Shown: positions 10,367 to 31,191 of the stretch, one piece after another | How positions within the stretch are numbered: position 1 is the stretch's first letter | Layout: every line of letters starts with the position of its first letter | From: a virus | Reading direction: 5' to 3' (one strand) | DNA: 32,404 nt | IMG/VR virus record: IMGVR_UViG_3300025280_000102 | Coordinates: 1-32,404 of that record | The notes under the pieces: model-generated | What the model was told of the DNA's origin: nothing | Databases searched by the model: none | What the model saw: the letters and a program-made list of their open reading frames with translations, nothing else | Translations under genes and position numbers: made by a program

Positions 10367-10957
10367 CTATTTTCTTTCTGTCAGGAAAAAAAGCTCACCA
10401 CCATTTTTATGTTTTGCTCTATTACAATTACAACAGAGTATTTGGTATCTTTCTTTATTTTCTTTTATTTTTTTTAATGAAGGGGCTTTGTCTTTGCTGC
10501 CATCATTAAAAACATGGTCTATTTCTAAATATATTTCTTCTGTTTCTCCACAACAAACACAACGATTGCCCAGAGTATCTAACATACTTTTTCTTCTATC
10601 TCTATAGGATGGTGAAACGATCCACTCCATTCCAACAACATCTTTTTTATACCAATACATTCTGATGTCTCGTACATTTTTACGCCCATACTTCAGGCCC
10701 TCAACCTTTACACCTAAATCTTTCAGAGCATTTATTTTTAACACTGCTGGCTTAATCGCTCGTGCATTTAGGTTAGAAAATGTGGTTAGTTTTCCTTTGG
10801 GTACACCTAATAGCTCTCTAAATTCAGCTACAGTGAACTTCTCCTGCATTCTCACTCTTTGTCTCTTATCTCCTTCTTTTTGTTTAATTACCGCATACAG
10901 CGCCCGTGCATATTTGCTTTTGAGCATATTAGAATTAGACAAGATCGACCACTTCAC
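10367..10957 (-). CDS. Rep_3-type winged-helix domain fused to HNH endonuclease (196 aa)
   Basis: The start is GTG at 10957, with GGGAG six bases upstream inside the RNR gene. The two genes overlap by 23 bases. Residues 11-105 read like the second winged-helix domain of plasmid Rep_3 (RepE/pi-type) initiators: LKSKYARALY near the start, EFRELLGVPKG in the middle, then IKPAVLKIN and GLKYGRKNVRDIRMYW. Residues about 130-190 are an HNH nuclease: CVCC, then LEIDHV with the catalytic His, then YQILCCNCNRAKH. The first Rep winged helix is absent. The probable role is a free-standing homing-type endonuclease with a borrowed DNA-binding domain. A replication nickase or initiator is a less likely alternative. 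Confidence 0.75.
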   Translation of the reverse strand: MKWSILSNSNMLKSKYARALYAVIKQKEGDKRQRVRMQEKFTVAEFRELLGVPKGKLTTFSNLNARAIKPAVLKINALKDLGVKVEGLKYGRKNVRDIRMYWYKKDVVGMEWIVSPSYRDRRKSMLDTLGNRCVCCGETEEIYLEIDHVFNDGSKDKAPSLKKIKENKERYQILCCNCNRAKHKNGGELFFLTERK

Positions 10958-23744: not shown

Positions 23745-23773
23745 ATTGTATACACCACATACGCCTTTGTCAA
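23745..23773 (-). promoter_or_regulatory. Leftward sigma70-type promoter of the replication operon
   Basis: On the minus strand, TTGACA (23773-23768), a 17-bp spacer and TACAAT (23750-23745) are followed about 40 bases later by the first leftward gene. A second TTGACA lies at 23784-23779 but has no -10 at a workable distance. The match is close to consensus and the position is exactly where a divergent operon needs it. Confidence 0.75.
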
Positions 23774-23803
23774 GGGCTTGTCAAGTGGTGATGTCATCTT
23801 TTT

Positions 23804-23871
23804 TTTTGTTAGCTCCAAACTTTTGTTAGCTCCAAACTTTTGTTAGCCTCTAACTTTTGTTAGCTCGACAC
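23804..23871. repeat. Four tandem 17-bp repeats (iteron-like)
   Basis: Units start at 23804, 23821, 23838 and 23855, exactly 17 bp apart. Units 1 and 2 are identical, TTTTGTTAGCTCCAAAC. Units 3 and 4 keep TTTTGTTAGC and vary after it. A T-run precedes the array. It lies between the leftward promoter and the rightward promoter, which fits a regulator operator array or an origin with iterons. Confidence 0.85.
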
Positions 23872-23988
23872 CCTACCCCCTCACTGTCATTACTGGGTCG
23901 TTTTCACGGTAGCGTTCAGCGGCTGGCTTGTCAACATCAGTAAGGAAACACTACAGATAATCCTTAACTAGAATGTTGTTAACAGCAC

Positions 23989-24016
23989 TTGACAGGGGTT
24001 GTGGATTTGGTATAGT
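23989..24016 (+). promoter_or_regulatory. Rightward sigma70-type promoter of the accessory module
   Basis: TTGACA (23989-23994), a 16-bp spacer and TATAGT (24011-24016) lie 26 bases before the ATG at 24042. Because the promoter lies inside the longest version of the downstream frame, it also argues for the shorter start. It is divergent from the leftward promoter at 23745-23773. Confidence 0.65.
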
Positions 24017-26713: not shown

Positions 26714-26733
26714 ATTGTAGCTTGTGAAGAATG

Positions 26734-26759
26734 ACGGCGGCGGTTTATACTGTCGCCGT
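26734..26759 (+). terminator. GC-rich hairpin between DUF932 and zinc-ribbon genes
   Basis: ACGGCG (26734-26739) and CGCCGT (26754-26759) pair around a 14-base loop and are followed by TATCTTTT. This looks like a weak intrinsic terminator or processing site within the module. The following gene then has its own ribosome site. Confidence 0.45.
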
Positions 26760-26786
26760 TATCTTTTCATGAAAGGAAAAACGACT

Positions 26787-26981
26787 ATGAAATGTGTATT
26801 GTGCAAACAGGAAATAAGAAAAGACCCATTGACGCAATGGGATCAAGGCAACAATGCCGAACCACTTGCAGAAGGTCGCTGTTGCGATAACTGCAACCAT
26901 GACGTATTGGCTGCGCAAATCTTAAACGCTGCCTATCGTTCTGGGTATAAACTGACTGGTAAAATACGGGAGGCTGAATAG
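26787..26981 (+). CDS. Small zinc-ribbon protein (64 aa)
   Basis: ATG 26787, preceded by AAAGGA, gives the start MKCVLCKQEIRKDPLTQWDQ. The second Cys cluster is RCCDNCNHDV, so the CxxC...CxxC ribbon is complete around an Asn-Ala-Glu-Pro segment. Similar short proteins (MKCxxC...GHNAEP...GRCCDxCN) recur in many phages without known function. The next gene begins at the base after the stop. Confidence 0.75.
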   Translation: MKCVLCKQEIRKDPLTQWDQGNNAEPLAEGRCCDNCNHDVLAAQILNAAYRSGYKLTGKIREAE

Positions 26982-27383
26982 ATGTCTGCATTGAAATGGC
27001 TACACGAACGGCGGAACAAAAATACTGCGCCGTATTTTGAGGAGGTACTAGATACAAAATATCCTGATACCGAATTTGCTGAGATGGATGGCGCTGTAGC
27101 ATTCTCGATCGCCATTAAGGAGCACGTACTATCCAGCAACCAGACCGCGATAAACTGGGCAGGCTATTACATGTTCATGTATGCAGAGCGCGTATGGCAT
27201 GAGGATAATGACGGGGCAGAGTGGCGCACCCGTCTAAACTTCAAACATCTGGACACGCGCAACTATCTGCGCTGTACCGTCAATGCCATATTTCTTAAGC
27301 CTGATGAGACTGCGACCATAGTCGATGATGTCGAGTATGTGCACAAGTCGCCCACCAGTGAGGATGACACGATAACAACATAA
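26982..27383 (+). CDS. Hypothetical protein (133 aa), GC-rich
   Basis: ATG directly follows the previous stop (TAGATG), with GGGAGG upstream. The protein is soluble, with many Trp, Tyr and Phe (INWAGYYMFMYAERVWHEDN) and an acidic end. The family is not recognised. Its base composition is visibly richer in G and C than that of genes at either end of the window, which suggests a separate origin. It is the last gene before the large non-coding region. Confidence 0.65.
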   Translation: MSALKWLHERRNKNTAPYFEEVLDTKYPDTEFAEMDGAVAFSIAIKEHVLSSNQTAINWAGYYMFMYAERVWHEDNDGAEWRTRLNFKHLDTRNYLRCTVNAIFLKPDETATIVDDVEYVHKSPTSEDDTITT

Positions 27384-27419: not shown

Positions 27420-27449
27420 TGGCGGGTTTGTATAAATTACAGCCCGCCA
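27420..27449 (+). terminator. Terminator-like hairpin at end of accessory module
   Basis: TGGCGGG (27420-27426) pairs with CCCGCCA (27443-27449), and TGTA with TACA inside it, giving a strong stem. It is 36 bases after the last gene of the module. The 3' flank is TATTCTTTCC, so the U-tract is poor, but the position fits transcription termination. Confidence 0.55.
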
Positions 27450-27796
27450 TATTCTTTCCTGAAACTGAACAGCCCTCAATATTTTGTTGGACCTATCGCG
27501 TGCGTGCGCGCATGTGTCATGTGACGTGCAGTAGGATACACCACCAGTACAGCGAATATAGGCATAATCTGGATCGACGGGAGAGGTCAGAAACTAGCGG
27601 AAAACTGCCCATAACCCGATTTGGTCATAGTATAGATAGTCGGTTCTATGTTGTGTTAATAATGTCACAATAAAAAACATATATAAATCAATGGGTTGGG
27701 GTTGCATGGGCCACCCGCCCCCCCGCGTATGAATATACGCAATACCGACAGAAAATGTGTATTTTTAAAGCGTATGATAATAAATAAAAAACAACC
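27450..27796. other. Non-coding stretch with Z-DNA-like tract and hairpin
   Basis: No credible gene is present. It holds a 21-base perfectly alternating pyrimidine-purine tract (27497-27517), one copy of CAGCGAATATA (27550-27560), a C-run near 27717, and the perfect hairpin GCGTAT-GAAT-ATACGC (27725-27740). The left part is GC-rich and the right part turns AT-rich. A TTG-started 84-codon frame at 27419-27673 has no ribosome site or natural composition. Confidence 0.5.
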
Positions 27797-27863
27797 TATA
27801 TTTGCTGACCCAAAAGTCCCTCATATATTTGCTGTGTCTAATTAGTCCATCATATATTCGCTG
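27797..27863. repeat. Three direct repeats of TATATTYGCTG
   Basis: Copies lie at 27797-27807, 27824-27834 and 27853-27863. The last two are parts of a longer 29-bp repeat that also shares the block TCTAATTAGT. A fourth, exact copy lies in the opposite orientation at 27971-27981. The reverse complement, CAGCRAATATA, also occurs at 27550. They follow the leftward promoter at 27918-27946, so they would be transcribed by it, or they may be binding sites for a regulator. Confidence 0.75.
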
Positions 27864-27917
27864 TATCTAATTAGTACTACCCTATCTACACATATAACCC
27901 TTAACCGTATATATACT

Positions 27918-27946
27918 ATTATACAGGTAAAAACTGATTTTGTCAA
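27918..27946 (-). promoter_or_regulatory. Perfect-consensus leftward sigma70 promoter with no gene behind it
   Basis: On the minus strand, TTGACA (27946-27941), a 17-bp spacer and TATAAT (27923-27918) are an exact consensus. There is no minus-strand gene for more than 4 kb to the left; the next features are the repeats at 27797-27863 and then plus-strand genes. Its spacer is nearly the same as that of the rightward promoter at 28159-28187. Confidence 0.7.
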
Positions 27947-27995
27947 GTCTTTTTTTTATTTATTTTTTATCAGCAAATATAGCAAATGTAACCCA

Positions 27996-28110
27996 TTGAA
28001 AAGGTTAGCAAATAAGGGGCAATGTAAATTTCTTAGTCACTGCAAATATTTTTTTTTAAAATTGGGAAACGTAAAAATTTACATCGTCGTTTATTTGCTA
28101 ATACTTTCAA
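27996..28110. repeat. 115-bp interrupted palindrome with symmetric blocks
   Basis: The left arm has TTGAAA (27996), TAGCAAATAA (28006) and ATGTAAATTT (28022). The right arm has their exact reverse complements AAATTTACAT (28075), TTATTTGCTA (28091) and TTTCAA (28105). The unpaired spacers are 4 and 6 bases on both sides, so all blocks share one centre at 28053. The 43-bp middle is AT-rich. It lies between the two outward-facing promoters and upstream of TerS. Confidence 0.85.
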
Positions 28111-28158
28111 AGACTTAACTTTACACTTTTTTATTTTTTATTTTTTTGAAAAAAACAC

Positions 28159-28187
28159 TTGACAAAATGCGATTTTACCCCTATAAT
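28159..28187 (+). promoter_or_regulatory. Perfect-consensus rightward sigma70 promoter of the packaging operon
   Basis: TTGACA (28159-28164), a 17-bp spacer and TATAAT (28182-28187) match consensus exactly, 109 bases before the TerS ATG. The leader between them contains AGCGAATATA at 28285-28294, a copy of the recurring motif, just before the start codon. Confidence 0.8.
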
Positions 28188-28296
28188 AGTAGTAGAGGCT
28201 GGAAAAATATCCACTTCCTCACATGATGAAAAAACCTTTTGTTAGTGAAGATATTACCCATCCTCCTTTTATTTATAATGAAAAAGCGAATATACT

Positions 28297-28701
28297 ATGA
28301 ACGTACCGGCCAAGCGCGAACTGACAGATAAGCAAAAAACTTTTTTAGATAATCTACTTATAAATGGTGGAAATATTACGCAAGCAGTTAAGGAAGCCGG
28401 TTATCATCCCGGTTCTCGCGGAGGGCTGGTACGTTCCCTAAAGCAAGAAATCATAGATCACACTCGCAACCATCTTATAGGTTCTTCCGTGAAAGCAGCT
28501 AATCGCATATCTGAAGCGTTAGATGCAGACGGTTCTATTCCTTCATCACAGATGGATACGCGGCTGAAGGCAGCAAATGATATCTTAGATCGTGTTGGTG
28601 TATCTAAACGACAGGAAGTCGAGCATACCGGAGAGGTCATGCACGGCATCGTATTGCTTCCTGCAAAGCAACCAATGAAGGAAATAACCGTAGAGGGATA
28701 A
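28297..28701 (+). CDS. terS: Terminase small subunit (134 aa)
   Basis: ELTDKQKTFLDNLLINGGNI leads into TQAVKEAGYHPGSRGGLVRS, a helix-turn-helix typical of small terminases. The helical oligomerisation region follows (STRL-like DTRLKAANDILDRVGVSKRQ) and a hydrophobic then acidic tail. It recognises the packaging site and regulates the large subunit. It is the first gene after a perfect promoter and a large palindrome. The ribosome site is weak (AAAAGCGA), with the recurring AGCGAATATA motif in the way. Confidence 0.88.
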   Translation: MNVPAKRELTDKQKTFLDNLLINGGNITQAVKEAGYHPGSRGGLVRSLKQEIIDHTRNHLIGSSVKAANRISEALDADGSIPSSQMDTRLKAANDILDRVGVSKRQEVEHTGEVMHGIVLLPAKQPMKEITVEG

Positions 28702-29574: not shown

Positions 29575-31191
29575 ATGGCACGGCCTAAATTAAAAGATGG
29601 AGAGCGGGGTAATTATAATGTATCCCGCAAGGAGCAAAAAAAGCGTACTATTCAAAAACGCTTAAATTCTCAAAGACGAACACTTGAGAAAGAATCTAAA
29701 AAAGTTAGAACAAGAAGAGAGAAGATAAAACAGAATGAAGAACGTCTTAAAGTACTTAAAAATGGTGGTGTCACTTCCGATGAAAGTTTGGGCGTGGTTC
29801 TTGAAGATAACCAAGAACTCGTGTTCTCTCCTAATGCGGGGCCTCAAACTGACTTCTTAGCAGCACCTGAAAAAGAAGTATTGTATGGTGGTGCTGCCGG
29901 TGGCGGAAAAAGTTATGCGATGCTTGTTGATCTTCTACGGTATGCGAATAATCGCAATCACAGAGCATTGTTGCTACGTAGAACACTTGCAGAGTTAACA
30001 GAGCTTGTCGATCAAAGCAAGAAACTATATTTACACGCTTTTCCGAAAGCACGGTTTAAAGAATCGACTAAGACATGGGAGTTTCCAAGCGGTGCAACAG
30101 CACTCTTTAGTTATGTTGATAAAGATGATGATGTGTATCGCTATCAAGGACAATCGTTCACATGGATAGGAATTGACGAATTAGGCCACTACCCGTCACC
30201 ATACGTGTGGAACTACCTACGATCACGTTTACGGACAGCAGATAGCTCTATAGATACGTATATGAGAGCGACAGCCAATCCCGGTGGTGTTGGTGGCTGG
30301 TGGATCAAGAAGATGTTTATTGATCCTAATCCTCCAAATGAGCCGTTTTGGGCCACAGACATTGATACAAATAAACCGCTAGTCTACGGTCCAAATCATG
30401 CAGATGCGGGAGAGCCGCTGTTTCATCGTAAGTTTATTCCTGCACGGCTAACAGATAATCCGTATCTTATGATTACGGGTGAATACGAAGCGATGCTCTA
30501 TTCTCTGCCAGAGGTTGAGCGAAGAAGGCTACTAGAAGGCGACTGGGATGTAGCAGAAGGTGCTGCATTTAGTGAGTTTAATAGAGAGGTTCACGTTGTT
30601 GATCCGTTTGAAGTTCCCGAAGGTTGGGCAAGGATAAGGGCGGGAGACTATGGATATAGTTCTCCTAGTTGTATTCTTTGGGGCGCAGTTGATTGGGACG
30701 GGAACTTATGGATATATCGGGAATTATACATTAAAGGGTATACAGGCGAAGCATTAGCACAGTTAATCCGTGAAATGGATCGGAAAGATACGAGAATGTC
30801 AATCTCTGTTCTTGATAAATCGTGTTGGAACCGTACTGGATTAGGGCCATCTATAGCAGAAACGATGATACGTCAAGGAGTACGGTGGATTCCATCCGAT
30901 TCAAATAGAATGTCAGGTAAGATAGAAGTACACAGAAGGCTTGCTATGAATGATTATGGAGAACCGCGACTACGAATTTTCTCCACATGCACAAATCTTG
31001 TTCGTACTCTTCCTACAATACCTTTATCTAAGACGAACAGCGAAGATGTCGATACAAAGTCAGATGATCATGCGTATGACGCACTACGATATATGTGTAT
31101 GACTAGACAGGTTTCTACACCACAAGCAGCTATTTTTAGGAATATGCATCATAGGCCACCAGAGCTTACGGATGCTACATTTGGGTACTAA
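29575..31191 (+). CDS. terL: Terminase large subunit (538 aa)
   Basis: The N-terminal 65 residues form a basic helix not usual in TerL. The ATPase follows: Walker A LYGGAAGGGKSYAM near 103-116, arginine-rich RALLLRRTLAELTELV, and Walker B FTWIGIDELG near 193-202 with the catalytic Glu. The RNase H-like nuclease has Asp in RIRAGDYGYSSPSCILWG (about 355-372), Asp in SVLDKSCW and DDHAYDALRYM near 508-518. It translocates and cuts DNA into proheads. The start directly abuts the upstream stop, so it depends on coupling; no strong ribosome site is seen. Confidence 0.95.
   Translation: MARPKLKDGERGNYNVSRKEQKKRTIQKRLNSQRRTLEKESKKVRTRREKIKQNEERLKVLKNGGVTSDESLGVVLEDNQELVFSPNAGPQTDFLAAPEKEVLYGGAAGGGKSYAMLVDLLRYANNRNHRALLLRRTLAELTELVDQSKKLYLHAFPKARFKESTKTWEFPSGATALFSYVDKDDDVYRYQGQSFTWIGIDELGHYPSPYVWNYLRSRLRTADSSIDTYMRATANPGGVGGWWIKKMFIDPNPPNEPFWATDIDTNKPLVYGPNHADAGEPLFHRKFIPARLTDNPYLMITGEYEAMLYSLPEVERRRLLEGDWDVAEGAAFSEFNREVHVVDPFEVPEGWARIRAGDYGYSSPSCILWGAVDWDGNLWIYRELYIKGYTGEALAQLIREMDRKDTRMSISVLDKSCWNRTGLGPSIAETMIRQGVRWIPSDSNRMSGKIEVHRRLAMNDYGEPRLRIFSTCTNLVRTLPTIPLSKTNSEDVDTKSDDHAYDALRYMCMTRQVSTPQAAIFRNMHHRPPELTDATFGY

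Follow-up and report, generated by a model that had tools for sequence, protein, structure and literature searches.

A divergent pair of perfect sigma70-type promoters beside probable packaging-start DNA in an HMO-2011-type marine podovirus

Results

Genome context and the two promoters

The DNA analysed here (the window, all 32,404 nucleotides of IMG/VR record IMGVR_UViG_3300025280_000102) derives from a marine podovirus of HMO-2011 type, of which it is a 32-kb fragment; its TerL is 46–54% identical to those of HMO-2011, Pelagibacter HTVC and Roseobacter CRP phages. Its minus strand encodes PolA, a primase/helicase, a gp2.5-like SSB and nucleases. Searches for a phage RNA polymerase gene gave no match in 9 records, the search controls being silent as well. 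HMO-2011-type phages have been described as a dominant group with a wide distribution in the ocean, and the main text of the paper in question makes no mention of promoters or intergenic elements (PMC9038755). The features of the locus are collected in Table 1.

Table 1. Features of the promoter locus and its surroundings (window coordinates; a dot marks a feature without strand)
Feature	Position	Strand	Remarks
GC-rich hairpin closing the convergent plus-strand operon	27421–27448	+	direct sequence reading
Conserved core, ~80 bp, probable packaging-start (pac) DNA	27695–27774	-	profile match E 3e-14
Weak candidate terminator of the PL transcript	27786–27834	-	-7.1 kcal/mol, then T run; strong counterparts in L007/L008
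Three direct repeats TATATTYGCTG downstream of PL	27797–27863	.	
Short dyad GTATATATAC over expected PL start	27907–27916	-	
Imperfect palindrome, 278 bp, promoters at its ends	27914–28191	.	two inverted repeats (I1, I2), centre ~28053
PL, perfect sigma70-type promoter, leftward	27918–27946	-	-35 27946–27941, -10 27923–27918
PR, perfect sigma70-type promoter for TerS/TerL	28159–28187	+	
TerS	28297–28701	+	Pfam Terminase_2; PHROG terminase small subunit
TerL	29575–31191	+	

Two promoters, PL and PR, face away from each other upstream of TerS. Both are exact 12/12 matches to TTGACA-N17-TATAAT, within the 16–18-nt spacing of sigma70-type promoters, so bearing out the first-pass annotation of this DNA, which had described two near-identical perfect promoters in inverted orientation. 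They are the only perfect sites in the record; chance would supply 0.02 (N17) to 0.06 (N16–18) per record from base composition, or 0.04 in Markov simulations. The shared motifs reported earlier are also there: both spacers open with AAAT and have TTTTACC close to their end, and AGTA follows both -10 boxes. More broadly, PL and PR spacer likeness is 0.50 within phages versus 0.40 between them, values uncorrected for phage relatedness. The promoter pair forms a 43-nt inverted repeat (86%) and a second inverted repeat of 57 nt (72%) shares its centre at ~28053, hence the whole segment is one imperfect palindrome. No ORF of at least 50 aa lies in the 213 bp between the -35 boxes. A shuffle test found no palindromic operator in the PL spacer and a borderline one in the PR spacer (0.056 of shuffles). 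PR ends 110 nt upstream of TerS and would drive it, as had been proposed. Within the TerS leader (28188–28296), AATATCCACTTCCTCA is strongly conserved, and is kept in locus L008 (5837–6000) despite an insertion.

An invertible promoter switch was considered and rejected, since both promoters face outward and flipping the segment would leave the layout unchanged. The same orientation of the centre in L016 and L018, despite seemingly swapped spacers, also contradicts it. The PL and PR spacers likewise look swapped between L015 and L018, again with the centre unturned, which suggests exchange between the arms of the palindrome. A mobile element was rejected because the pair lies at the corresponding place in relatives.

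Conservation of the pair in relatives

The outward perfect pair upstream of TerS is kept in relatives with TerS identities from 100% to 57%, and is also present in the majority of loci retrieved by way of TerL. The -35 boxes are spaced about 18–70 nt apart in most lineages, 117 nt in L037, and 203–233 nt in the window clade, L011–L018, L085/L088 and L098. Among cultured phages, HTVC115P has a perfect pair, and HTVC033P and HTVC103P each have one perfect and one 11/12 promoter. A search for the back-to-back pair covered 2.9 million viral contigs; among the matches listed, this TerS/TerL or the conserved core described below is present at 55 of the 80 loci checked, and the reversed control pattern gave zero matches in the same contigs. 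A long-gap pattern was far less specific (7 of 80 loci with this TerS/TerL or core), the reversed control applying to the back-to-back pattern only.

When the window is aligned with L004, L006 and L008, none of the 24 hexamer bases of PL and PR varies, compared with 7/17 and 9/17 invariant positions in the two spacers and 28/115 across the repeat stretch. Loss of PL from close relatives, which the first-pass annotation had named as evidence against the leftward promoter, was looked for and not seen across the TerS identities above or in most of the family, but some members do lack it. L034, L041, L044, L046, L064 and phage phiM6 keep the core and have no PL, and the pair beside TerS is absent from HMO-2011 and the Roseobacter CRP phages examined. 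We found no earlier description of this family-wide orphan promoter.

What lies downstream of PL

PL is strongly conserved and, as first noted, serves no protein gene in this lineage. Some 530 bp of noncoding sequence separate it from the plus-strand ORFs that it faces (26982–27383, 26724–26981, DUF932, GP88 and smaller ones), which extend down to 23973; the orientation of these genes agrees with the earlier claim, but they span about 3.9 kb rather than more than 4 kb. Near their far end, a second outward pair of 11/12 promoters (23745–24016, 216 nt apart) separates leftward replication genes from the rightward GP88/DUF932 operon. Most relatives resemble the window, with plus-strand genes left of PL ending 0.5–0.75 kb away. 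The cargo after PL nevertheless varies by lineage, from none in the window clade to leftward genes in L012 and L018 (ArdC-like in both, GP88 in L018) and a small lipoprotein-like ORF in L052 and L062. L048, L055 and L065 have ORFs that resemble the latter. The ORFs of these last five loci carry a lipobox, and one has a weak Rz-like spanin match (E 0.014); a superinfection-exclusion or lysis gene is possible.

Strong intrinsic terminators follow PL within about 100–300 nt in L007/L008, L030, L037 and L048/L052/L062, and likewise in the L068 group, L073/L092, L085/L088 and HTVC115P. In many lineages the terminator comes within ~100–190 nt, and the predicted PL transcript is about 85–150 nt long. 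The candidate in the window is weak, and L004 and L006 have no convincing terminator after PL. On the PR side candidates are mostly weak, with essentially no strong ones. Dyads over the start region are enriched in relatives at PL (mean stem 3.5 versus 1.2 in shuffles) and not at PR, which suggests that PL is controlled separately from PR.

The PL transcript has no special predicted RNA stability (mean z 0). Searches against Rfam gave no structured RNA family above the gathering score, sub-threshold miRNA matches being at chance level. For the PL transcript a structured RNA is unsupported, save in the L068/L073 clade, where there is a small hairpin of variable form whose loop reads GACGRAGG.

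Repeats and conserved core

The repeats reported between PL and the plus-strand genes are real, comprising three TATATTYGCTG copies. With both strands counted, the record has 24 copies of AGC[GA]AATA. Of these, 8 fall within the 913-bp intergenic stretch, against 0.12 expected from Markov copies of it (binomial p 2e-7). Tandem direct repeats of iteron type are present in the window clade and L012, and are not significant in most short-gap lineages. We infer that the repeats are candidate binding sites of a phage protein.

Beyond the repeats lies the conserved core, which in relatives is found about 80–300 nt downstream of PL, once per locus and in fixed orientation. The profile that detects it included the window sequence and phiM6 in its training set; loci outside that set include L034, L046 and L064, found through TerL. 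PL and PR lie to the right of the core in 76 of 85 rows, as does TerS in all 77 rows where it is detectable, at 281–3040 nt; these counts are not independent, since some rows duplicate a contig and the promoter-pair scan supplied many of the loci. RNAalifold finds no conserved base pair in the core, so that a structured RNA was rejected here and the core behaves as DNA.

As would be expected of a pac site, the core is a conserved DNA element near the terminase genes. Moreover, the Sinorhizobium phage phiM6 has a PhageTerm-predicted pac cut at record position 1 (PMC6256558), and its core lies at 47–120, hence ~50–120 bp from the cut. On the strength of this one distant relative we read the core, with moderate confidence, as probable packaging-start DNA; the spacing seen in phiM6 would put the cut in the window near 27650. 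Pile-up of contig ends was dropped as a marker of genome termini, left ends being spread 0–5.4 kb from TerL with no clear peak.

Discussion

We propose that the locus is a hub of divergent host-sigma70 promoters beside pac, and that in this phage PL gives a short non-coding RNA; we put the probability of this reading at roughly 55%. The hub would lie between TerS and the probable pac DNA, with PR serving a TerS/TerL transcription unit and PL being the same promoter module in opposite orientation. The leftward transcript would cross the repeat array and, in the window lineage, most likely end after roughly 100–150 nt, before or near the core. Its output here may be the short RNA or the mere act of transcription beside pac, while in other lineages the promoter in this slot would serve leftward early genes or a gene for a small lipoprotein. 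Terminators, where present, would hold PL transcription outside the core. Against this reading stand the weak terminator of the window, the want of a convincing one in L004 and L006, the unremarkable predicted stability of the PL RNA, and phiM6, the relative that supplies the pac link and has no PL between core and TerS.

The strong terminators of many lineages bear on two other uses of PL. The first-pass annotation had suggested a replication primer, and a replication origin would have PL transcription open or prime replication at the AT-rich/G-rich core, with an initiator on the repeats. An A-rich tract does open the core, which a strong promoter precedes, the repeats are iteron-like, PolA and a primase/helicase are present, and the window has a gene for a Rep3_C/HNH protein. 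In many lineages, however, terminators end the PL RNA ahead of the core, and this speaks against a general role as a primer or long antisense RNA. Several phages keep the core without PL, the predicted phiM6 pac cut lies near the core, and Rep3_C is found in 1 of 12 records, the window itself, and in none of the 11 relatives searched, so that no Rep_3 initiator is conserved with the repeats as an iteron-type origin would have it. We consider an origin unlikely, and a primer less well supported than the short RNA. The protein in question (10367–10957, minus strand) has a Rep3_C initiator winged-helix domain (E 7e-11) fused to a region resembling HNH nucleases and overlaps the end of a ribonucleotide-reductase-like gene; it is possibly a homing endonuclease, and a replication initiator is also possible.

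A leftward transcript had been expected to be either antisense or non-coding, and it is the non-coding RNA that is favoured. Long antisense RNA, in which PL read-through regulates the convergent plus-strand operon or reaches leftward early genes, fits the plus-strand genes to the left of PL in most relatives and the weak window terminator, but strong terminators soon follow PL in many lineages and L012/L018 have leftward genes instead; it seems distinctly improbable. Equally hard to credit is that PL is a leftover, the promoter of a cargo gene lost in the window lineage and now without a role. Lipoprotein ORFs or ArdC/GP88-type genes after PL in other lineages, and members that have no PL, would fit such a history; against it, all 12 PL hexamer bases are unchanged in four diverged members without cargo.

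A perfect promoter without a gene, kept in most of the group, adjoins a conserved block that likely marks the start of packaging. That its short RNA, or the conserved act of transcription, controls packaging at the neighbouring pac across a dominant marine phage group is a tentative idea that we hold to be doubtful. For cultured members, HTVC115P and HTVC103P among them, the locus would offer a precise landmark for transcription divergence, packaging start and a possible coupling of both.

In phage lambda, pL and pR are strong host-sigma70 early promoters that face apart at a transcriptional divide. Two strong sigma70-type promoters face apart in the window too, but PL has no gene cargo and no gene lies between the promoters, hence the repressor gene of a lambda-like immunity region was not found between PL and PR. 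Like a T7-type origin, the window has a promoter followed by AT-rich DNA, along with PolA-type replication genes; unlike it, the promoter is of host type and its transcript is seemingly terminated before the core in many lineages. In LUZ24 (Bruynoghevirus), sigma70 promoters are annotated ahead of TerS, with a genome terminus still further upstream, but both promoters face TerS, terminal repeats are annotated and there is no core match. The phiM6 pac site shares with the window a matching core upstream of TerS, with the predicted cut nearby, and differs in having no leftward promoter between core and TerS. Finally, inspection by eye showed another G-rich element, similar to part of the core and ~175–180 nt beyond it, in L038, L051, L073, L075, L085, L090 and L097; it is possibly a second terminase site.
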